In this document: positions 5,229 through 14,919 of the stretch, piece after piece
Numbering within the stretch: the stretch's first letter is position 1
Layout of the letters: the number at the start of each line of letters is the position of its first letter
Notes under the pieces: generated by a model
Databases searched by the model: none
Seen by the model: only the letters and a program-made list of their open reading frames with translations
What the model was told of the DNA's origin: nothing
Assembly: GCF_016464385.1 (NCBI RefSeq)
Contig: NZ_JADMLH010000004.1
Span: forward strand, 1 to 64,000
From: Nucisporomicrobium flavum
GTDB lineage: Bacteria > Actinomycetota > Actinomycetes > Mycobacteriales > Micromonosporaceae
Direction of reading: 5' to 3'
DNA: 64,000 bases
Translations under genes and position numbers: made by a program

Positions 5229-5630
5229 CTAAGCGGAGACGGTGAGTTGGGCGAGGGTGCGGTGGTTCACGACCCCCTCGATGGCCTCCTCCACCGCGAG
5301 CCAGACGTCCTTGAGGCCGGTCGCGACCCCGTGGTACGTCGTGGTCGTGGTGGGCAGGCCACGAACGGTGGTCAGCGCCCCGCCGACGGCCCGGACCACG
5401 TCGCCGACGGTGATGTCGTCGGCCGGCCGGGCCAGGGCGTACCCGCCGTCGACGCCGCGGTGGCTGTGCAGCAGGCCGGCGCGGCGCAGGTCGAGCAGGA
5501 TGCCCTGGAGAAAGCTGAGCGGGATGTCCTGGCCGGCCGCGAGCGACGCGGCCTTGACCAGGTGGGGGTGGTCAGCGGCGATCGCGAGCATGGCCCGGAC
5601 GGCGTAGTCGGTGCGTGCCGAGACGTACAC
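5229..5630 (-). CDS. Rrf2-family transcriptional regulator lacking Fe-S cysteines
   Basis: A 133-residue winged-helix regulator with the Rrf2 hallmarks YAVRAMLAIA near the N-terminus and FLQGILLDLRRAGLLHSHRG (recognition helix and wing). It has no cysteine at all, so it cannot bind the [2Fe-2S] cluster of IscR or NsrR. Cys-free Rrf2 proteins include the sulfur regulator CymR. It is the first gene of the ssu-like operon, which fits control of sulfur-source uptake. The GTG start at 5630 has AGAGGA about 9 nt upstream; longer in-frame extension up to 5720 has no family similarity. Confidence 0.87.
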   Translation of the reverse strand: MYVSARTDYAVRAMLAIAADHPHLVKAASLAAGQDIPLSFLQGILLDLRRAGLLHSHRGVDGGYALARPADDITVGDVVRAVGGALTTVRGLPTTTTTYHGVATGLKDVWLAVEEAIEGVVNHRTLAQLTVSA

Positions 5631-5837
5631 GGGGGGATGTCCTCTCGGTCCGGCGGAGCAAACTCTGCTTTCTCTATCTGATGGATGGGAATAGTGGACG
5701 AGGTGCGGTATCGGCGTCAACCCCGAACCGCATCATGGGATGTTCCTCTGCCGGATTAGTAGGAGAAGCCCCCCGATGGGGTGACGCCGGCCGGGCGCCG
5801 CCCGCGCGGGCGAAACACAAATGACCACGAGCTGTGG

Positions 5838-5850
5838 CACTATCTGCGCG
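5838..5850 (+). promoter_or_regulatory. Candidate leaderless promoter of the radical SAM gene
   Basis: CACTAT (5838-5843) followed by 6 nt and GTG fits a -10 element giving an mRNA that starts at the codon. The T at the first -10 position is missing, so support is moderate. Confidence 0.35.
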
Positions 5851-7058
5851 TGTTCGCCGTGTCCGAGCGCCGTCGGACGTCACAGGTGGTTCGCCTGGCG
5901 CCCGGGGTACGGGTCCGCGGGTCGATCGCGTACGTCCCGCGCCGGGACCACTTCTTCGCCCTCGACGCCCGCCACGAGGCCGTCCTGCGCCGCCGCACGG
6001 GCGACGACGAAGCCATCCGTACGCTCGCCGAACTGGGCATCTGTGACACCGAGCCGGCCACCCCGCGCCGCGCCTTCTTCGGCCGTTCCGTGGTCGGGCA
6101 CCTCGCCGCGCTCCCCGCGGTCACCGAGCCGCTGGTCGTGAACTGCTTCTCGACCGCCTTCTGCCCGCTGCGCTGCCGCTACTGCCACGCCGACGACCTC
6201 ATGACCCCCGGCTACCGGGAACGCGAGGACGACCGCGGGCTCGACCGGGTGCTGCGGGTCGCCGGAGCCACCCCCGCGATGGTCGGCGTGGTCACCGGCG
6301 GGGAGCCGCTAGCGCGGGCGGAGCGTACGGAGCGCCTGGTGGAACGGCTCGCCGCCACGGGCAAGGCGGTCGTGCTGGACACCTCGGGGGTCGGCGACTT
6401 CAGCCGCATCGTGCCCCTGCTGCAACGTCACCACGTGCACGTACGCGTCTCCCTGGACAGCGCCGACCAGGCCGTCAACGACGCGCTGCGCCCCGCCAAC
6501 CGGCAGTTCGTGCCGCCGGGCACCAGCTCGGCCGTGTACGCCCGCGACGCGATCCGGCGGGCCGTACGGGCCGGCGTACCGTGCAGCGTCCAGACCGTGG
6601 TGACCCGGCGCAACGGTGACCTCCCCGGCCTGCTCGCCCTGCGCGACCAGGTGGCGGATCTGGGCGTGACCACGTGGGTGCTGCACGTCGTCGTACCGGT
6701 CGGCAAGGCCGCCGACCCCCGCCGCGCGGACCTCCTCGCCCCGGAGGGCGTGCACGGCGTCGTGGAGGAGCTGGTGCGGCGCAGCGCCGCGGACGGTGTG
6801 GCCATGGACATCCGGCTCACCAGCACCCACCGGGCGCCGAACTCGACGCTGCTGATCAGCGCCGACGGCGAGCTGGCGGTGGAGGACGTGATCAACGGCG
6901 GCAAGAGGACGTTCCGCCTGCCGCGGGTCGGCGCCCGGGCGGCGGTGCTCCGGCACTTCCGCGAGCACGTGGACCTGACCGGGCACGCCAGCCGTTACCT
7001 CAACGGCTCGCTGGCACCCTTCGAGAACGCGACGGGCGCTACCCTGCCGCGGGGCTGA
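5850..7058 (+). CDS. Radical SAM protein, unassigned subfamily
   Basis: A 402-residue radical SAM enzyme. The cluster motif CX3CX2C is present as CPLRCRYC (Cys 105, 109, 112), followed by VTGGEPL (SAM binding) near residue 148. The first ~65 residues form a separate domain rich in Arg and beta-strand-like segments that could bind a peptide partner, as in RiPP maturases. There is no SPASM-like Cys cluster at the C-terminus. No precursor peptide gene is evident nearby. It is divergent from the Rrf2 gene, and its last 20 bp overlap the convergent antitoxin-like gene. The reaction is unknown. GTG at 5859 is an alternative start. Confidence 0.82.
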   Translation: MFAVSERRRTSQVVRLAPGVRVRGSIAYVPRRDHFFALDARHEAVLRRRTGDDEAIRTLAELGICDTEPATPRRAFFGRSVVGHLAALPAVTEPLVVNCFSTAFCPLRCRYCHADDLMTPGYREREDDRGLDRVLRVAGATPAMVGVVTGGEPLARAERTERLVERLAATGKAVVLDTSGVGDFSRIVPLLQRHHVHVRVSLDSADQAVNDALRPANRQFVPPGTSSAVYARDAIRRAVRAGVPCSVQTVVTRRNGDLPGLLALRDQVADLGVTTWVLHVVVPVGKAADPRRADLLAPEGVHGVVEELVRRSAADGVAMDIRLTSTHRAPNSTLLISADGELAVEDVINGGKRTFRLPRVGARAAVLRHFREHVDLTGHASRYLNGSLAPFENATGATLPRG

Positions 7059-7419
7059 CCGACCAGGCCGCCGCGGTCTCGAGCAGCGCCTTCACGCTGG
7101 TCTCGTCGCCCTCGGAGAGGCGTAGCACCCGGGCGGGCACGTAACCCTGCGGGTCCATCTCGCGCAGCCAGGCCGCGGCGAGCGCCGTCCGGTTGGCCGT
7201 CTCGAAGACGCTGACGATCTCGGCGGCCGCGGCGAGCCGCCGGCGCACCAGGTAACCGGGGCGGGTCGGCGCGGCGAACCAGGACTCGAACTCGCCCACG
7301 CTCGAGGCCCCGGCGACGTACGCGGTCAGCTCCCGGCCGAGCACCGTGACGCACAGCTCCGCGTGGTCGTCGACGGTCGCGATGCGGTGCCCGACGCGTT
7401 CCACAACTGCGGCAGTCAT
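7039..7419 (-). CDS. MbcA/ParS/Xre-type antitoxin-like protein without adjacent toxin
   Basis: A 126-residue protein whose layout resembles the MbcA/ParS (DUF2384) antitoxin fold: LGRELTAYVAGASSVGEFES, then RRRLAAAAEIVSVFETAN, then AAAWLREMDPQGYVPARVLR near the C-terminus. In known systems this domain binds a RES-domain NAD-degrading toxin. No RES toxin gene is next to it. It overlaps the radical SAM gene tail to tail and lies 50 bp downstream of the SIR2-like gene on the same strand, yet it has its own leaderless promoter. The family call is moderate, made by eye. Confidence 0.6.
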   Translation of the reverse strand: MTAAVVERVGHRIATVDDHAELCVTVLGRELTAYVAGASSVGEFESWFAAPTRPGYLVRRRLAAAAEIVSVFETANRTALAAAWLREMDPQGYVPARVLRLSEGDETSVKALLETAAAWSVSPAAG

Positions 7420-7431
7420 GCCTCGACGCTA
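7420..7431 (-). promoter_or_regulatory. Leaderless promoter of the antitoxin-like gene
   Basis: On the minus strand TAGCGT is followed by CGAGGC and then the ATG at 7419. This is the -10/6-nt/start arrangement of leaderless actinobacterial genes, so the gene can be expressed apart from the upstream SIR2 operon. Confidence 0.55.
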
Positions 7432-7469
7432 GCTCCGTACCGCCAAGACCGCGACCGCCGAACGGTCTT

Positions 7470-9548
7470 TCATGGCAGAAAGACATTTGTCACCCGGGCG
7501 GCCAGGTCGTCGAGGACCGGCTTGCCGTCCTCGTCCGCGGCGACGAAGGCCGCCCATGAGTCCAGCGGGAAGTCGTCGGTCTCCGGTACGGGCTCGTGGT
7601 TGAGGTAGCCGGGCAGCAGCAGCGCGTTCTGGAACAGCCAGGGGATGTAGCTGCCCTCCGCGTCCCATCCCGGCAGCTCCCGGGTCCGGTGCAGATGCCG
7701 GGTCAGCTCCTCCTGCGACGACCAGCGCAGCATGTGGGCGTCGTGTTTCAGGTTCCTGATGTACGGGTTGTAGAGGTGCCCCGGCCCGAACCCGAACGTC
7801 TGCCGCCACTGCGCCCACAGGATGGCCTCGTCGCGCCCGCCCAGCGTCATCACGTCGTTGGTCGTGCTCTCCAGGAGCATGCTGTTCAGGTACGGCCACA
7901 GCGTCAGCGGCGTCAGCAGGTTGCGCGCGTCCGTACGCAGCACCGCCTGCACGATCGGCCACGCGTTCTTCTCCAGCTCGTCCCACGACGTCAGGTTGGG
8001 TACGGCCTTCACCGCCGCGAGCAGGCTGTACAGCGACGGGTTGTGCTCGCCGTAGAACATCCGCGCCACCGACCAGGGGTCCGTCGGGCGCAGCAGTGCC
8101 TCGGGGTTGCCGGCGGCCGGATACCGGGCGCCCCGGTCGAGGAACTCCGACAGGCTGACGAACTCGCGGACCGCGCCGTGACCGGTGTGGTCGATCCAGC
8201 GGTCGAGGTCGTCGCGGAAGCCGGTCTGCGCCTCGGTGTCGCGCAGGCCGACGTCGTCGATGCAGACGCGCACCTCCACGCCGAGACGGGCGAGAGCGCC
8301 GGCCACGAACGCCTGCACCATGTGGATCACGGAGGCGCGGGGGCGCAGGCGTACGGGCCAGAGCAGCCGGATCGGCTGGACCGTGCCGCGCTGCTGCGTC
8401 ACCCAGCCGAACCGGCGCTCGAGCTGGAGCAGCAGCCCCGGCACGTCGCGCGGCGGGCTGCTGTCCGGCTGGGAGACGAGCTGGCGTTCCCAGGCGTGGT
8501 GGCGTACGCGGTTCTTGAGCCCGGTGGCACGCGGCGGCACGGCGACGCCGGCGCGTTCGGCCAGGGCCGGGAGGAGCCGCTCCGAGTCGACGCCGGGGAA
8601 GCACTCGACGGCCACACCCGTGTTCTCGCGCAGCCGGGCGGCCGCGCTGAGGGCGGTGGCCGCGTCCGGGTCGTTGAGCGTCCAGAGCACGCGTACGGGC
8701 CGGGTCCGGGCGACCGCCGCGGTGATCGTCCCGGCCCAGTCGCTGCTGCCGATCACGCACACGGTGTCGCCGCGGATGAGGTCGGCGGTGGTGGCGACCA
8801 GGGGCGCGTTCTCTGCCAGGTGCGCCGGATCGTGCAGCAGCTGGGGGCCGCGTACGTGCAGGGTGGGCCGCCAGAAGCCGTGCAGGTGGAAGACGCGTAC
8901 GGCGCCGTCGGAGCCGCCGGCGTGCCCGAAGCCGCCCGCCGAGTCCAGCGGCAGGCTGACCGCCCGGCCGCCCGCGTCGCGGATGGCGATCTCGAGCAGC
9001 GGGTCGAAGTTCGTGGTCAGCACCCGGTGGTCGAACGCCTCGGGGATGCTCGCGAGCAGGTGACCGAGCGCCTGCACCCCGCGCGGGAGCAGCCAGGAGA
9101 AGCGGTCGTTCTCCACGCCCTCGCCGACCGCACGGTCGAGGCGCTGCCCGAGCCCGTGCGTGGCCAGCGGCGACTCCATCGGGTCCGGCGCCGCGTACGC
9201 CTTCAGCACGGCCTGCTGCGCGATCACGTCGAACGCCCCGCCCGACACCCAGTCGGTGAACACCCGCCGGTACGCCCTGTACACGTCCACGGGCCGCGCG
9301 CCGACGAGCTCCGCGCGCGCCTGGGCCAGCGCCCGTTCCAGCGCGCCGTCGTCGTTGCGTCCCGCCGCGTAGCTGTCGGCGATCTCCAGCACACCCTGCA
9401 CCCGGGGGACGGCGGTGGCCGTGACGCCCGAGCCGATCACCAGCGTGATCTGGTCGGCGTCCTGCAGGGCTGCCGTCAGCCGGTCGATCAGCAGGCGCTC
9501 GCCGGGGCTCAGGCCGTCGCCCGCCGGGTCCGGCTCCGGCGCCGTCAT
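7470..9548 (-). CDS. SIR2-like (NAD-binding) domain protein with large unassigned C-terminal region
   Basis: A 692-residue protein. Residues ~30-335 carry SIR2-like fold motifs: VIGSGVT (Gly-rich loop, 37-43), LTTNFDPLLE (177-186, with N180 and D182), HLHG (221-224) and CVIGSSD (264-270). SIR2-like domains in bacterial conflict systems often hydrolyse NAD. Residues ~345-692 have no family I can name. VIHMVQAFVAGALARLG followed by CIDDVGLRD resembles the HIGH-containing core of class I synthetase-like (HUP) folds, but weakly. The ATG overlaps the caspase gene stop (ATGA), so the two are translationally coupled. It is the likely effector or processing target of this operon. Confidence 0.82.
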   Translation of the reverse strand: MTAPEPDPAGDGLSPGERLLIDRLTAALQDADQITLVIGSGVTATAVPRVQGVLEIADSYAAGRNDDGALERALAQARAELVGARPVDVYRAYRRVFTDWVSGGAFDVIAQQAVLKAYAAPDPMESPLATHGLGQRLDRAVGEGVENDRFSWLLPRGVQALGHLLASIPEAFDHRVLTTNFDPLLEIAIRDAGGRAVSLPLDSAGGFGHAGGSDGAVRVFHLHGFWRPTLHVRGPQLLHDPAHLAENAPLVATTADLIRGDTVCVIGSSDWAGTITAAVARTRPVRVLWTLNDPDAATALSAAARLRENTGVAVECFPGVDSERLLPALAERAGVAVPPRATGLKNRVRHHAWERQLVSQPDSSPPRDVPGLLLQLERRFGWVTQQRGTVQPIRLLWPVRLRPRASVIHMVQAFVAGALARLGVEVRVCIDDVGLRDTEAQTGFRDDLDRWIDHTGHGAVREFVSLSEFLDRGARYPAAGNPEALLRPTDPWSVARMFYGEHNPSLYSLLAAVKAVPNLTSWDELEKNAWPIVQAVLRTDARNLLTPLTLWPYLNSMLLESTTNDVMTLGGRDEAILWAQWRQTFGFGPGHLYNPYIRNLKHDAHMLRWSSQEELTRHLHRTRELPGWDAEGSYIPWLFQNALLLPGYLNHEPVPETDDFPLDSWAAFVAADEDGKPVLDDLAARVTNVFLP

Positions 9549-10816
9549 CGGCCCGCCTGCAGCGACTGCCACAGCTCGCCGGGGCGTTCGGTGAACACCT
9601 GGCGGGCGGTGTGCCGGCTCGCGACCAGGGCGCCGCGGTCGAGGTATTCCTCGAGCTCGCCCGAGCGCCAGCCCAGGTAGCCGACGAACACCCGCATGGC
9701 GTCCACGCTGCCGGTCACATCCTCCGGGTTACCCGAGAGGTGCAACGTGCCAAGCCTTTCCCGTACGGGCGTGAAGCGCAGCGGCTTGGGCGCGCCCGCC
9801 CGCAGCAACGTCACGACGATGTAGCCGTCCTGGGCGACCGGGCCGCCGTGGAACAGCATCACGGGGTTGCGCAGCAGCCGCCGCCACGAGTCGGGGAAGT
9901 CGGCCGGCAGCTCGCCCTCCGGCCGGGTGATGCAGACCCCGAGCGCGCCGGTCTGGTTGTGCCGCAGTACCAGCATCGCCCGGCGGCCGAGGTCCTCGTC
10001 GACGAACCAGGGCGCCGCGTACAGCACCGTGCCGGCGAGGTTGTGTCTGGGCGCGGCGGGGTTGTGCACCAGCGCGATCTCGCCGCCGGAGTCGCGGGCG
10101 CGCAGCTCCGGACGCTCGAACCCGCGGCGCAGCATCGCGCGGCGTACCGTGCGCCAGACGGCGTGGACGGTCAGCGCGGGCGGCGCCGGTTCGGGCGGTG
10201 GCGGTCGCAGGCCGTCGCGGAGCAGCCGGATCAGCTCGCCCGTGAAGGCGGTGTGGACCTCCCCGCGCGGCGCCATCGCGGGCCGGTTGGCGGGAGCGGA
10301 GACGAGCAGGCACGTCCCGTCGGTCTCGGCCTTGTCGGCGACCGCGTCGGTGCCGCTGCTGTCCCCGCCGATCTCGGCGCCCGCGCGGCCGGAGTAGCAG
10401 CAGTCGAGGATGACGACCCGGCGGCGGGCGCGGGAGTCGGCGACCGCGCGGCGGATCCACTCGTACGGGACCCCGCGCTCGTAGGGCACCTCCGGGTCGC
10501 AGCCGGGCAGGCCGAGGATCAGCCGGTCGTCGTCGGGGTCGACCAGGCCGTGCCCGGCGAAGTACACCAGCAGCAGCCCGTCGCGCTCGGTCGCGGCGGC
10601 GGCCCGGCGGACCGCGCGGCTCACCTCGGCCGGATCCTCCGGATCCACCAGCACCTGGCAGTTGTCCGCGGGGACACCCCAGAGATCCTCGCCCGCCAGC
10701 AGCTCGCGCAGGTCGGTCACGTTGCGCCCGGCGGCCGGCAGCTCCGGGAGCCTCCGGTACGCCGAGACGCCGATCAGCACGACCTGCGAGGCGGCCGGGT
10801 CGGCGACGTCACTCAT
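9545..10816 (-). CDS. Caspase-family protease fused to AlgH/YqgE (DUF179) domain
   Basis: A 423-residue, two-domain protein. Residues ~10-250 form a caspase-like (peptidase C14) domain with the catalytic pair visible: His in VYFAGHG (H89) and Cys in VILDCCYSG (C140). Residues ~258-420 match the AlgH/YqgE fold: GTVLYAAPWFVDEDLGRRAM, TGALGVCITRP, FHGGPV and VFVGYLGWRSGELEEYL. I know these domains as separate proteins, so the fusion is unusual. The start at 10816 has AGGGA upstream and overlaps the preceding adaptor-like gene by 8 bp. In context it is probably the protease of an immunity module, activated by the EACC1-like partner. Confidence 0.87.
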   Translation of the reverse strand: MSDVADPAASQVVLIGVSAYRRLPELPAAGRNVTDLRELLAGEDLWGVPADNCQVLVDPEDPAEVSRAVRRAAAATERDGLLLVYFAGHGLVDPDDDRLILGLPGCDPEVPYERGVPYEWIRRAVADSRARRRVVILDCCYSGRAGAEIGGDSSGTDAVADKAETDGTCLLVSAPANRPAMAPRGEVHTAFTGELIRLLRDGLRPPPPEPAPPALTVHAVWRTVRRAMLRRGFERPELRARDSGGEIALVHNPAAPRHNLAGTVLYAAPWFVDEDLGRRAMLVLRHNQTGALGVCITRPEGELPADFPDSWRRLLRNPVMLFHGGPVAQDGYIVVTLLRAGAPKPLRFTPVRERLGTLHLSGNPEDVTGSVDAMRVFVGYLGWRSGELEEYLDRGALVASRHTARQVFTERPGELWQSLQAGR

Positions 10817-11183
10817 CGGTCCCTGCCGCCCGCCCTCCGCCCGCCTCTTCCAGCCGCGCCAGGGCGTCGGCCAGCGTCCGGTGGTCCGCCGCCTCGATCC
10901 GCGTCGTGGCACCGTCCGCGGCCGTGTGCACGATCGTCACCTTCGGGGACGGCCGGCGCGAGTCCCGCCACGAGGCCACCGCGAGCGCGAGCTGACCGGC
11001 CGACAGCCCGCTGCCGATGACCAGCGTCAGCACGTCGAGCAGGGTGCCCATCGTCTGCGGGTCGTCGCTGCGGGCCCGGGCCAGCCGGCCGTCGACGCGT
11101 ACGGCGTCCTCCCGGCGCAGCCAGCGGTGCAGCGACTCGGCATCCTCCGGCGACGGACACTCCAGTCGGAGCTCAACCGGCAT
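10809..11183 (-). CDS. Effector-associated constant component EACC1-like protein
   Basis: A 124-residue protein whose layout fits EACC1 (effector-associated constant component), a small protein described as the invariant partner of proteases and other effectors in actinobacterial conflict systems. It has LRREDAVRVDGRLARA, then MGTLLDVLTLVIGSG with a hydrophobic helix, then ALAVASWRDSRRPSPKVTIV and a C-terminal strand-helix tail. ATG at 11183 is preceded by GGGGAGA. It is the first gene of the operon and overlaps the caspase gene by 8 bp. The identification rests on remembered family pattern and needs a profile search. Confidence 0.72.
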   Translation of the reverse strand: MPVELRLECPSPEDAESLHRWLRREDAVRVDGRLARARSDDPQTMGTLLDVLTLVIGSGLSAGQLALAVASWRDSRRPSPKVTIVHTAADGATTRIEAADHRTLADALARLEEAGGGRAAGTDE

Positions 11184-11300
11184 GAAAGTCTCCCCGTGTC
11201 ATATCGATGCACGTTTCTGGCTTCGCGGACACTGCTAGGCGAAGCTAGCATCGAGCGTCGACGCGGTGACCGGGCGTACCCGTCGGATGCCGCGGCGGGA

Positions 11301-11313
11301 TAGATTCTTGGGG
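11301..11313 (+). promoter_or_regulatory. Leaderless promoter of the first M16 peptidase gene
   Basis: TAGATT (11301-11306), then 6 nt, then the GTG start at 11313. The mRNA would begin at or next to the start codon. The intergenic gap 11184-11312 also serves the divergent EACC1-like operon. Confidence 0.55.
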
Positions 11314-12620
11314 TGGCCCGCACAATGAAGATCCCCGCGACGAAATACCCGGTCGAACGGTTCACCCTCGACAACGGCCTGCGGGTGGTCCTCACGCCCG
11401 ACCGCAGCGCTCCCGTCGTCGGCGTGGCCGTCGTCTACGACGTCGGCATCCGGTCCGAACCGGAGGGTCGCACCGGCTTCGCCCACCTCTTCGAGCACCT
11501 CATGTTCCAGGGCTCGGAGAACCTCGAGAAGCTCGCCCACTTCCGGCACGTCCAGGGCGCGGGTGGCAGCTTCAACGGCTCCACCCACCTCGACTACACC
11601 GACTACTTCGAGGTGCTCCCGGCGGGCGCCCTGGAGCGCGCGCTGTTCCTCGAGGCGGACCGCATGCGCGGCCCCCGGCTCACCGAGGAGAACCTGCGCA
11701 ACCAGGTGGACGTGGTGAAGGAGGAGATCCGGGTCAACGTCCTCAACCGCCCGTACGGCGGCTTCCCCTGGCTGAAGCTGCCGCCGGTGATGTTCGAGAC
11801 GTTCCCCAACGCCCACGACGGGTATGGCTCCTTCACCGACCTGGAGAGCGCCACGGTCGAGGACGCGCAGGAGTTCTTCGGCAAGTACTACGCCTCGGGC
11901 AACGCGACGCTGGCGGTCGCCGGCGACTTCGACGTGGCCACCGCCACCAGGCTCATCGAGGCGCACTTCGGCGACGTGCCGGCCCGGCCCAAGCCGGAGC
12001 TGCCCGACTTCGCCGAGCCCGGCCTGAGCGCCGAGCGCCGGGAGAGCTACGTCGACCGGCTCGCCCCGCTGCCCGCCATCGCGGCCGGCTACCGGGTGCC
12101 CGACCCGATCGCCGACTTCAGCGCCTACCTGCCGTACGTGGTGCTCGCCGAGGTCCTCACCGACGGCGACGCGTCCCGCCTGGTCGAGCGGCTCGTGCAG
12201 CGCGACCGCATCGTCACCAGCGTCGGCGGCTACATCGGATTCATGGGCGACGAGTACCAGGTGCGCAACCCCACCGCGCTGCTGCTGCAGGCGCACATGC
12301 CGCCGGGCGGCGACGCGGACAAGGTGCTGCGGGTGGTCGACGAGGAGCTCGACCGGCTGGCCACCGGAGGCCTCGCGCCCGGCGAGCTGTCCCGCACCCA
12401 GGCCCGCATGGCGACGCACCTGCTGCGTGACACCGACGCGGTGCTCGGCCGGGCCCTGCCGATGGCCGTGCTCGAGCTGCAGCGCGGCAGGCCCGAGCTG
12501 CTCAACGAGCTGCCGCGGCTCGTCGGCGAGGTCACCGAGGCGCAGATCGTCGCGGCCGCCGCCAGCCTGCGGCCCGAGAGCCGTGCCACCGTCGAGGTCG
12601 TCCCGGGAGCCAACCAGTGA
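11313..12620 (+). CDS. M16-family zinc peptidase (catalytic subunit)
   Basis: A 435-residue pitrilysin/processing-peptidase-like protein. The inverted zinc motif HXXEH is present as HLFEH (H58, E61, H62), and the third ligand lies in NQVDVVKEEI downstream. It contains one full M16 unit (two subdomains), the length expected for the beta-type subunit. The next gene encodes the partner that lacks the zinc motif, so they probably form a heterodimer that degrades or processes short peptides. The genes overlap by 4 bp (GTGA). Confidence 0.92.
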   Translation: MARTMKIPATKYPVERFTLDNGLRVVLTPDRSAPVVGVAVVYDVGIRSEPEGRTGFAHLFEHLMFQGSENLEKLAHFRHVQGAGGSFNGSTHLDYTDYFEVLPAGALERALFLEADRMRGPRLTEENLRNQVDVVKEEIRVNVLNRPYGGFPWLKLPPVMFETFPNAHDGYGSFTDLESATVEDAQEFFGKYYASGNATLAVAGDFDVATATRLIEAHFGDVPARPKPELPDFAEPGLSAERRESYVDRLAPLPAIAAGYRVPDPIADFSAYLPYVVLAEVLTDGDASRLVERLVQRDRIVTSVGGYIGFMGDEYQVRNPTALLLQAHMPPGGDADKVLRVVDEELDRLATGGLAPGELSRTQARMATHLLRDTDAVLGRALPMAVLELQRGRPELLNELPRLVGEVTEAQIVAAAASLRPESRATVEVVPGANQ

Positions 12621-13936
12621 GCGTCAAGACCCTGCCGGACCTCGTGCCGGATTCGAAGATCAAGCTGCCCAAGCAGGCCGAGCGCACGCTCAGCAGCGGC
12701 CTGACCGTCATCGCCATCCGCCGGCCGGCGGTGCCCCTGGTCGAGCTGCGGCTGCGGGTGCCGTTCGGGCGTGCCCCGCTGGCCCGGGCCACCCTGCTGT
12801 CGCAGGCGCTGTTCACCGGCACGGCCACGATGTCCAGCATCGACATCGCGGCCGAGCTGCAGGCGGTCGGCGGCGGCCTCTCCGCGGGGCTCGACCCGGA
12901 CCGGCTGCTCATCACCGGCAACTCGCTCGCCGCGGGGCTGGACCGGATGCTGGAGATCCTTGCCGCGGTGCTGACCGACCCGGCGTACCCGGCCGATGAG
13001 GTGGGCACCGAGCGGGACCGGCTCGTCGACCACATCCAGGTGGCGCAGAGCCAGCCGGCGCACCTCGCCCGGACGGCCCTGCTCAAGCGGATGTACGGCA
13101 AGCACCCGTACGCGGTCCAGACGCCCGAGCCGGAGCAGGTCAGGGGCGTACGCCCGGGGCAGCTGCGGACCTTGCACGCCGAGCGGGTGCGCCCGGAGGG
13201 CTCGGTGCTGGTGCTCGTCGGCGACATCAACGTCGAGAAGGCGATCGACGCGGCGGAGAAGGCGCTCGGCGACTGGATCGGCTCGGGCCGCGACGGGGCC
13301 GTGCCGCCGACGCCCGCGCTCGAGCCCGGCCCGCTGCTGCTGGTCGACCGGCCGGCGTCGGTCCAGTCGTCGCTGCGGATGGCGTTGCCGGCGGTGCCGC
13401 GCACCGATCCCGACCACGCGGCGCTGCAGCTGGCGAACATGGTCTTCGGCGGCTACTTCTCCTCGCGGTGGGTGGAGAACATCCGAGAGGACAAGGGCTA
13501 CACGTACGGCCCGCACACCGCCATCGAGCACTTCGTCGCCGGCTCCTCGCTGGTGGTGGCCGCCGAGGTCGCCACCGAGGTGACCGGCCCTGCGCTGCTC
13601 GAGACGCTGTACGAGCTCGGCCGCATCGCCAGCCTCCCGCCCGGTGAGGAAGAACTCGAGCAGGCCCGCCGGTACGCCCTCGGCACCCTGCGCCTCGGCA
13701 TGTCCACGCAGGCCGGCCTGGCGGGGCTGGCCAGCATCTACGCCAGCTTCGGGCTGCGGCTGGACTACCTCACCGAGCACTCGGCGGCGCTCGCGGCGGC
13801 GACCCGCGAGCAGGTGGCCGAGGCCGCGGCCCGCTACCTGGCGCCGTCGCGGGCGGTGTCGGTCGTGCTCGGCGACGCGGAGAAGGTGGAGGGGCAGCTG
13901 TCCGCCCTGACGAGCGTGGAGCGCGGCGCCGCGTGA
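12617..13936 (+). CDS. M16-family peptidase homologue without zinc motif (non-catalytic partner)
   Basis: A 439-residue M16 protein. At the place of HXXEH it has LLSQALFTG, so it cannot bind the catalytic zinc. The C-terminal half keeps the conserved SSRWVENIREDKGYTYG segment of the family (R/Y substrate-clamp region). It should act as the alpha-like subunit with the product of the preceding gene. Start GTG overlaps the previous stop, and its end overlaps the Nudix gene start by 4 bp, giving a tightly coupled three-gene operon. Confidence 0.92.
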   Translation: MSVKTLPDLVPDSKIKLPKQAERTLSSGLTVIAIRRPAVPLVELRLRVPFGRAPLARATLLSQALFTGTATMSSIDIAAELQAVGGGLSAGLDPDRLLITGNSLAAGLDRMLEILAAVLTDPAYPADEVGTERDRLVDHIQVAQSQPAHLARTALLKRMYGKHPYAVQTPEPEQVRGVRPGQLRTLHAERVRPEGSVLVLVGDINVEKAIDAAEKALGDWIGSGRDGAVPPTPALEPGPLLLVDRPASVQSSLRMALPAVPRTDPDHAALQLANMVFGGYFSSRWVENIREDKGYTYGPHTAIEHFVAGSSLVVAAEVATEVTGPALLETLYELGRIASLPPGEEELEQARRYALGTLRLGMSTQAGLAGLASIYASFGLRLDYLTEHSAALAAATREQVAEAAARYLAPSRAVSVVLGDAEKVEGQLSALTSVERGAA

Positions 13937-14919
13937 CCGGGCCGGTGCAGGAGGACCAGCCGGACGTCGGCGAGCAGCCCGGCCTCGACGGTCCGCCGCT
14001 GGCGCGGACCAGCCTGGACCGGGCCGCGCACCGCCGCAAGGACGACGCGTGGCTGGCCGAGGCGTGGAAGAGCGGCCTCGTCCTGGTGATCGACATCGCC
14101 AAGGGCGGCCGCGCGCTGATCGCCGGAGCCGACGGGGACAAACCGTCGCTCGTGCTGGTCGGTGCGGAGGAGGCGCCCGAGGGGGAACGCCTGTTCCTCG
14201 GCGTCGACCCGGCCGGGGTGCCCATCTTCGCCGTCGACGCGCCGCTGCCCGAGGCGGCCGGCGCAGAGGTCCGCAACCTGCGCGACATCGGCGACCGGCT
14301 CGACCCGCGCGACGCCGGCATCTTCACCACGGCCGCCGCGCTGGGCAACTGGCACGCCACGCACCGGTTCTCCCCGCGCTCCGGGCAGCAGACCCGGGTG
14401 GTGGAGGCCGGCTGGTCGCGCGTCGACGAGGATGGGCGGCAGATGTGGCCGCGGACGGACCCCGCGATGATCGTGCTGGTGCACGACGGCGTCGCCGGGC
14501 CGGACGGCCGGTGCCTGCTCGGCCACAACGCCGCCTGGCCGGCGGTCGACGGCATCCGCCGGTTCTCCTGCCTGGCCGGCTACGTCGAGCCCGGCGAGTC
14601 GGCCGAGACCGCCGTCGTCCGCGAGGTCCGCGAGGAGGCCGGCGTCCGGCTCCGCTCCGTCGTGTACGAGGGCAGCCAGGCGTGGCCCTTCCCGGGGTCG
14701 CTGATGCTCGGGTACACCGCCGAGGCGGATCGCGACCAGGCGCTCGCCCTCGACCCCGAGGAGATCGACGAAGCGCGCTGGTTCACCCGCTCGGACATCG
14801 CCCGGATGATCGCCGGTGATTTCGTGGACCCGGCGAGCGGCGTACGGATGAATCTGCCCATGCGCTCTTCCATCGCCTTTTATCTGGTTGAGCGATGGTT
14901 GGGGGATTCCGCCCGATAA
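13933..14919 (+). CDS. nudC: NADH pyrophosphatase-like Nudix hydrolase (NudC family), zinc ribbon cysteines lost
   Basis: A 328-residue NudC-type enzyme, expected to cleave NAD(H) or NAD-capped RNA to NMN and AMP. The Nudix box GX5EX7REVREEAGV is intact starting at GYVEPGE. Upstream of it, the usual zinc ribbon is degenerate: FSPRSG stands where family members have FCPRCG, and the second Cys pair is also missing. Zinc binding therefore seems lost, while the catalytic helix remains. The gene is the third in the M16 operon (GTGA overlap). Confidence 0.88.
   Translation: MTGPVQEDQPDVGEQPGLDGPPLARTSLDRAAHRRKDDAWLAEAWKSGLVLVIDIAKGGRALIAGADGDKPSLVLVGAEEAPEGERLFLGVDPAGVPIFAVDAPLPEAAGAEVRNLRDIGDRLDPRDAGIFTTAAALGNWHATHRFSPRSGQQTRVVEAGWSRVDEDGRQMWPRTDPAMIVLVHDGVAGPDGRCLLGHNAAWPAVDGIRRFSCLAGYVEPGESAETAVVREVREEAGVRLRSVVYEGSQAWPFPGSLMLGYTAEADRDQALALDPEEIDEARWFTRSDIARMIAGDFVDPASGVRMNLPMRSSIAFYLVERWLGDSAR

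Follow-up and report, generated by a model that had tools for sequence, protein, structure and literature searches.

Which protein does the caspase of an EACC1-caspase pair act on, and what effector does it release? The available text of Kaur et al. 2020 (PMC7159879) names neither of the two for the caspases that accompany EACC1, and a locus of Nucisporomicrobium flavum makes both testable through the fixed partners that surround its caspase gene. This locus lies in a stretch of 64,000 nucleotides (contig NZ_JADMLH010000004.1, positions 1 to 64,000; hereafter the window). It is a cassette of four to five genes, encoding EACC1, a caspase-AlgH fusion, a SIR2-like protein, a small protein that appears by homology to belong to the Xre/MbcA/ParS antitoxin family (gene 4) and, in about half of the copies, a radical S-adenosylmethionine (radical-SAM) protein. 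The reading preferred here, finely balanced between acceptance and doubt, is that of a caspase-gated suicide module in which a SIR2 toxin degrading nicotinamide adenine dinucleotide (NAD) would be restrained by gene 4; such a module would probably be directed against invaders. A preliminary description had treated three overlapping minus-strand genes as the unit. Their coordinates were confirmed from the sequence and their linkage holds, but the unit extends further, to two genes that had been overlooked (7039-7419, minus strand, and 5781-7058, plus strand).

10809-11183, minus strand: gene 1, EACC1 (124 amino acids; PF19953 and hydropathy)
9545-10816, minus strand: gene 2, caspase-AlgH fusion (423 amino acids; NF047832, Peptidase_C14 and DUF179), with the caspase domain at residues 10-230 (H89 at 10550-10552, C140 at 10397-10399) and the AlgH/DUF179-like part at residues 257-418
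7470-9548, minus strand: gene 3, SIR2-like protein (692 amino acids; PF13289, SIR2_2)
8514-9548, minus strand: N-terminal half of gene 3, SIR2_2 domain (PF13289)
7470-8513, minus strand: C-terminal half of gene 3, residues 346-692, putative family-specific domain (alignment of 20 sequences)
7039-7419, minus strand: gene 4, candidate Xre/MbcA/ParS antitoxin-family protein (126 amino acids; PF09722 in divergent orthologs)
5781-7058, plus strand: gene 5, radical-SAM protein (425 amino acids; Radical_SAM profile)

As read from the sequence, genes 1 and 2 overlap by 8 base pairs (bp; 10809-10816) and genes 2 and 3 by 4 bp (9545-9548). Gene 4 starts 50 bp past the SIR2 stop codon, and gene 5 is convergent to gene 4, sharing 20 bp with its end.

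Conservation of the cassette

The SIR2 protein is matched in 40 of 300 Micromonosporaceae genomes, which represent eight of 44 genera. Thirty-nine loci besides the window were fetched and their open frames searched with profiles grown from the window genes, which recovered the caspase in 36 loci, AlgH in 37, EACC1 in 32, gene 4 in 36 and a radical-SAM gene in 22. The caspase-AlgH gene stands directly 5' of SIR2 in 36 of 37 loci, L072 being the exception and L056 and L060 being left out because a contig end falls at the expected caspase position; the linkage of the trio thus exceeds chance, and the neighbourhood survey that the preliminary description had called for finds the three genes staying together. 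Down to a SIR2 identity of about 31 percent, the genes keep the order EACC1, caspase-AlgH, SIR2, gene 4. A second set of 23 Micromonosporaceae loci has the same gene order, several of them coming from the same genomes as the first set and adding little independence.

The gene 4 profile finds 37 of the 300 genomes, all within the 40 SIR2 genomes and with the match adjoining SIR2 by coordinates; the SIR2 genomes with no gene 4 match are G053, G184 and G256, and no SIR2-free genome among the 300 yielded gene 4. Radical-SAM matches (E up to 1e-30) occur in 21 genomes, again all within the SIR2 set; in 20 of these the gene neighbours SIR2, and in G130 it lies on a different contig. Naive hypergeometric values for association with SIR2 are 3e-44 for gene 4 and 1e-21 for radical-SAM, both inflated by genome relatedness. 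With the caspase-AlgH protein as query, five candidates being scored per genome, all 300 genomes match through one or other domain; among the matches listed, 36 span both caspase and AlgH, every one of them in a SIR2 genome.

The limits of the cassette are set by two flanking genes:

5721-11312, no strand assigned: whole cassette, the interval between the flanking Rrf2 regulator and M16 peptidase genes
5229-5720, minus strand: Rrf2 regulator, cassette boundary
11313-12620, plus strand: M16 peptidase, cassette boundary

These two genes bracket the cassette in the window and in nine further loci (L034-L042), four of which (L035, L040, L041 and L042) carry it without the radical-SAM gene. In five same-genus genomes (L150-L154, hand-picked out of 60), the Rrf2 and M16 genes are adjacent without a cassette, with a gap of 100-673 bp between the tblastn matches. 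Because these cassette-free relatives keep the flanking genes side by side, the cassette comes and goes as a single unit. In other genera it sits in different surroundings, and the M16 gene was found in nine of the 39 loci. When plasmid and phage carriage was looked for, two plasmid records matched, both weakly and only in the N-terminal part, and no phage did. That a caspase, a probable NAD-degrading enzyme (NADase) and an antitoxin-like protein travel together in this way suggests that a protease triggers self-destruction or defence in these soil actinobacteria.

EACC1 and the caspase-AlgH fusion

Profile searches bear out the identities first assigned to the two upstream genes. Gene 1 scores 84 bits against EACC1 (PF19953; cut-off 23.6) and shows, by hydropathy plot only, a peak of 1.82 at residues 51-69 that contains the Gly/Ser patch GSGLSAG. 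Gene 2 reaches 229.2 bits against NF047832, 'caspase, EACC1-associated type' (cut-off 140), 34.1 bits against Peptidase_C14 (cut-off 21.4) and, in its AlgH part, 63 bits against the AlgH-like family DUF179 (cut-off 27). The window caspase carries H89 together with C139/C140, and the H89/C140 dyad is intact in all 36 orthologs, in agreement with the intact His and Cys noted earlier. The genome of origin has one EACC1, three caspase-domain matches and two matches to AlgH, of which one stands alone and the other is part of a fusion.

The preliminary description had made EACC1 a component of the trio. An EACC1 profile match occurs in 32 of the 39 loci, but the protein seems dispensable, no EACC1 having been found in four of the 36 loci that bear a caspase. 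At two of these, L063 and L065, the frame 5' of the caspase resembles an alpha/beta hydrolase by eye.

The SIR2 protein and its C-terminal domain

The SIR2-like identity of gene 3, proposed at first from motifs, is upheld by 26.4 bits against SIR2_2 (PF13289; cut-off 24.5); the EACC1 and SIR2 profiles both being above cut-off, the possibility raised earlier that either fold might be absent does not hold. PF13289 is matched by 40 of 41 aligned homologs (E up to 1), and a profile search of the PDB returns FAM118B at 4e-7 (residues 164-302) in addition to weak Sir2-superfamily matches. The window protein holds N180 (9009-9011), H221 and H223 (8880-8882). According to the available text of PMC12700824, NAD processing by FAM118B requires N163 and H206, and since both pairs are spaced 43 residues apart in the alignment, N180 and H223 are equated with them. 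N180 is retained in 37 of the 39 loci and H223 in 35.

The C-terminal half (residues 346-692), which is a family-specific domain as judged from sequence comparison, has 17 invariant columns among 20 aligned sequences. No Pfam family recurs in it across 41 homologs and no sequence match was found in the PDB, and among 396 genomes of the phylum it was found only in the genome of origin. A search aimed at copies of the domain that are not fused to SIR2 gave ten proteins, three of which are members already known. The other seven measure 221-595 amino acids on contigs of 1,280-3,750 bases, and at least one, the metagenomic P0172, has a SIR2 part, which looks degraded and has lost its motifs; the remaining short proteins could be truncated genes, and the restriction of the domain to SIR2 fusions is unproven. 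At L072/L155 (genome G184) the SIR2 and C-terminal halves stand behind a region that matches TCAD9 weakly (25 bits, below the cut-off of 40), so that this pair of halves is apparently used elsewhere too; L072 has no caspase, and a radical-SAM gene of a second type follows its SIR2 gene. Similarity of the C-terminal half to class-I tRNA synthetases (HUP fold) was considered and rejected, since comparison with 29 TyrRS/TrpRS sequences was not significant (probability 1.3 percent, E 0.042), even though IHMVQ falls opposite HIGH and GGRDE opposite GGSDQ in the weak alignment obtained.

The junction between the two halves bears on the possibility that a caspase cut at this point is what directly activates the SIR2 protein, with gene 4 as merely an autoregulator. 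This alternative, which is unlikely, would draw on the 4 bp shared by the caspase and SIR2 genes and their adjacency in all but one of the 37 uncut loci, on an Arg-rich junction in the window protein, and on the activation by proteolysis that the main text of Kaur et al. (PMC7159879) proposes for EACC1 systems. The junction residues R349, H350, W353 and E354 are, however, invariant or nearly so, which looks more structural than a flexible cleavage loop, and direct cleavage leaves unexplained the linkage of gene 4, which is as tight as that of EACC1. Gene 4 would be a more natural caspase target than the SIR2 protein, whose processing by the caspase had been envisaged in the preliminary description.

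The antitoxin-like gene 4

Gene 4 is placed by homology in the Xre/MbcA/ParS antitoxin family because divergent orthologs match PF09722 and four of its 69 database homologs bear the UniRef name 'Antitoxin Xre/MbcA/ParS-like'. Of nine selected divergent orthologs, two exceed the PF09722 cut-off of 24.5 (35.7 and 32.6 bits), four fall below it and three have no match; 24 close homologs of the window protein gave none, NF049845 scored below cut-off, and PF09722 matched two genomes among 60 relatives, the genome of origin not being one of them. Pfam finds no RES domain in any of the cassette proteins, the SIR2 protein included, and gene 4 is therefore kept apart from the RES/Xre systems. That it is paired with a probable NADase is suggestive because MbcA neutralises MbcT, an NAD-degrading toxin, according to the available text of PMC7291234.

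A different role, that of a DNA-binding regulator of the cassette rather than a SIR2 inhibitor, would move the SIR2 switch elsewhere, for example to the C-terminal domain sensing an invader molecule. The N-terminal region of gene 4 does resemble Xre helix-turn-helix proteins by eye, two loci with intact SIR2 motifs (L070 and L072) are without it, and the nearest SIR2 relatives bear a sensor part of their own (nSTAND5). Such a role is nonetheless quite unlikely: the gene comes at the end of its operon, none of the 300 genomes yielded it without SIR2, and no palindrome is evident by eye in the alignment upstream of EACC1.

Proposed mechanism

Gene content, gene order, the catalytic residues and the gain or loss as a block can be read from the sequences; from these we infer an NADase activity, its inhibition by gene 4, its activation by the caspase, membrane sensing by EACC1 and an immune purpose. 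In the resting state of the suicide module, gene 4 would hold the SIR2 NADase inactive, most likely via the family-specific C-terminal domain. Detection of a membrane event by EACC1 would switch on the caspase, which would lift the restraint through cleavage of gene 4 (the SIR2 protein being the less likely target), and the resulting loss of NAD would stop the cell. AlgH may dock the substrate. The radical-SAM protein may act by modifying one of its partners, gene 4 being a candidate. A fuller version, tentative and with the balance tipped against it, is a three-layer death switch in which the EACC1-triggered caspase would destroy an MbcA/ParS-type antitoxin guarding the SIR2 NADase, the C-terminal domain would be a new fold on which the antitoxin docks, and the radical-SAM protein would tune the lock. 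If true, this switch would wire a toxin-antitoxin pair into a caspase cascade. Three themes studied apart from one another, namely caspases of bacteria, SIR2 NADases and toxin-antitoxin pairs linked to NAD, would then meet in a single small unit whose empty site is clean.

Several observations weigh against this account. H223 is lost at four of the 39 loci (L061, L062, L067 and L068) and N180 additionally at L067 and L068; since the catalytic Asn or His is missing, some SIR2 copies may be catalytically dead, which is at odds with a purely NADase role. L063, L064, L065 and L068 yielded no EACC1 upstream of their caspase gene, and gene 4 is missing from three of the 39 loci, namely L068, where SIR2 residues are lost, and L070 and L072, where they are intact. 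The window copy of gene 4 has no PF09722 match, the known partners of the Xre/MbcA/ParS family are RES toxins rather than SIR2 proteins, and the co-occurrence figures are inflated by shared ancestry.

There is a further alternative, in which AlgH would be the effector freed by the caspase, following the scheme of variable C-terminal effectors in the main text of Kaur et al. (PMC7159879), and the SIR2 protein would be a regulator using an NAD or ADP-ribose signal. AlgH does sit in the variable slot, and the four loci with lost catalytic residues retain the C-terminal half of the SIR2 protein. This arrangement is nevertheless improbable, given that Asn180 and His223 persist in the great majority of copies (37 and 35 of 39, as above), that AlgH is not known to have a toxic activity, and that a literature search on AlgH brought up no function.

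Accessory and neighbouring genes

Gene 5 scores 49.6 bits against Radical_SAM, and its CX3CX2C motif (C128/C132/C135) has all three Cys present in 22 of 22 loci. Its identification as a viperin was rejected: a PADLOC pVip match at 1.1e-8 is set against just 27.5 bits for NF038283 (cut-off 180). A PqqD/RRE domain suspected by eye at its N-terminus gave no Pfam match to E 10 in seven main-type orthologs. The radical-SAM genes of the 22 loci comprise 19 of the window type and three of a second type (L063, L065 and L072). At L063 (8734-9747) and L065 (9172-10146), a different radical-SAM protein with a Cys-rich C-terminus is encoded codirectionally, directly 3' of gene 4, apparently a second recruitment of such a gene into the cassette. 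The radical-SAM genes of other conflict systems are predicted to modify peptides in the main text of Kaur et al. (PMC7159879).

A CYTH-domain gene lies close to the radical-SAM gene in eight of the 39 loci (L060, L061, L063, L064, L065, L069, L070 and L071), that of L071 scoring 61.4 bits against PF01928. Upstream of EACC1 (window 11184-11312), the blocks TGCTAGC and ATGC.TCGATAT are conserved in most of ten aligned loci and are a possible promoter or operator. Two genes outside the cassette edge, at 13933-14919 on the plus strand, is a gene for a NUDIX protein with NADH-pyrophosphatase-like domains, probably a chromosomal neighbour.

Comparison with known systems

The preliminary description regarded the trio as an undescribed system, which is correct in part. 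The EACC1-caspase pair is known already, being 'System 4' of Kaur et al. 2020 (PMC7159879) and having an NCBI model; the linked SIR2, antitoxin-like and radical-SAM genes are apparently new. The main text of that paper mentions none of AlgH, DUF179, SIR2 and sirtuin, its supplement not being covered, and within the same limit the open-licence literature yielded no paper combining an EACC1-caspase with SIR2, AlgH and an antitoxin-family gene. A literature search likewise gave no usable paper on CRISPR-associated caspases, which reportedly offer a precedent.

As in System 4 (main text of PMC7159879), the 5' EACC1 gene overlaps a 3' gene whose product starts with a caspase and ends in a variable domain, the slot being filled here by AlgH; unlike that two-gene system, the cassette adds linked SIR2, gene 4 and often radical-SAM. 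EACC1 of System 4 is described there as having a single conserved transmembrane helix with a small-residue patch, to which the hydropathy peak around GSGLSAG in the window protein may correspond. The putative antitoxin-family protein beside a probable NAD-consuming enzyme recalls the RES/Xre systems MbcTA and ParST, from which the cassette differs in its SIR2_2 partner, with no RES domain found, and in its attached caspase operon. With the SIR2_2 immune NADases ThsA, DSR1, DSR2 and SIR2-HerA and vertebrate FAM118 it shares a SIR2_2 domain with catalytic Asn and His (available text of PMC12700824), whereas the family-specific C-terminal domain and the caspase and antitoxin-like partners set it apart, its NADase activity being predicted.

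The closest SIR2 domains outside the family belong to SIR2-nSTAND5 and SIR2-CHAT-AAA proteins. A scan of genome contigs gave ten loci that match the SIR2 N-terminal part only; of five such relatives scanned, four (L097, L099, L101 and L103) are SIR2-nSTAND5 proteins above cut-off. No STAND NTPase family was found in the window SIR2 protein, which in this respect is unlike Avs-like SIR2-STAND proteins and these four relatives. The protein at L104 (9635-13552), from a Chloroflexi metagenome-assembled genome, is a SIR2-CHAT-AAA-TPR protein with SIR2 and CHAT motifs intact by eye, so that a caspase-fold protease and SIR2 also occur in a single chain. These relatives fuse SIR2 to a STAND or CHAT part, whereas the cassette has separate genes.

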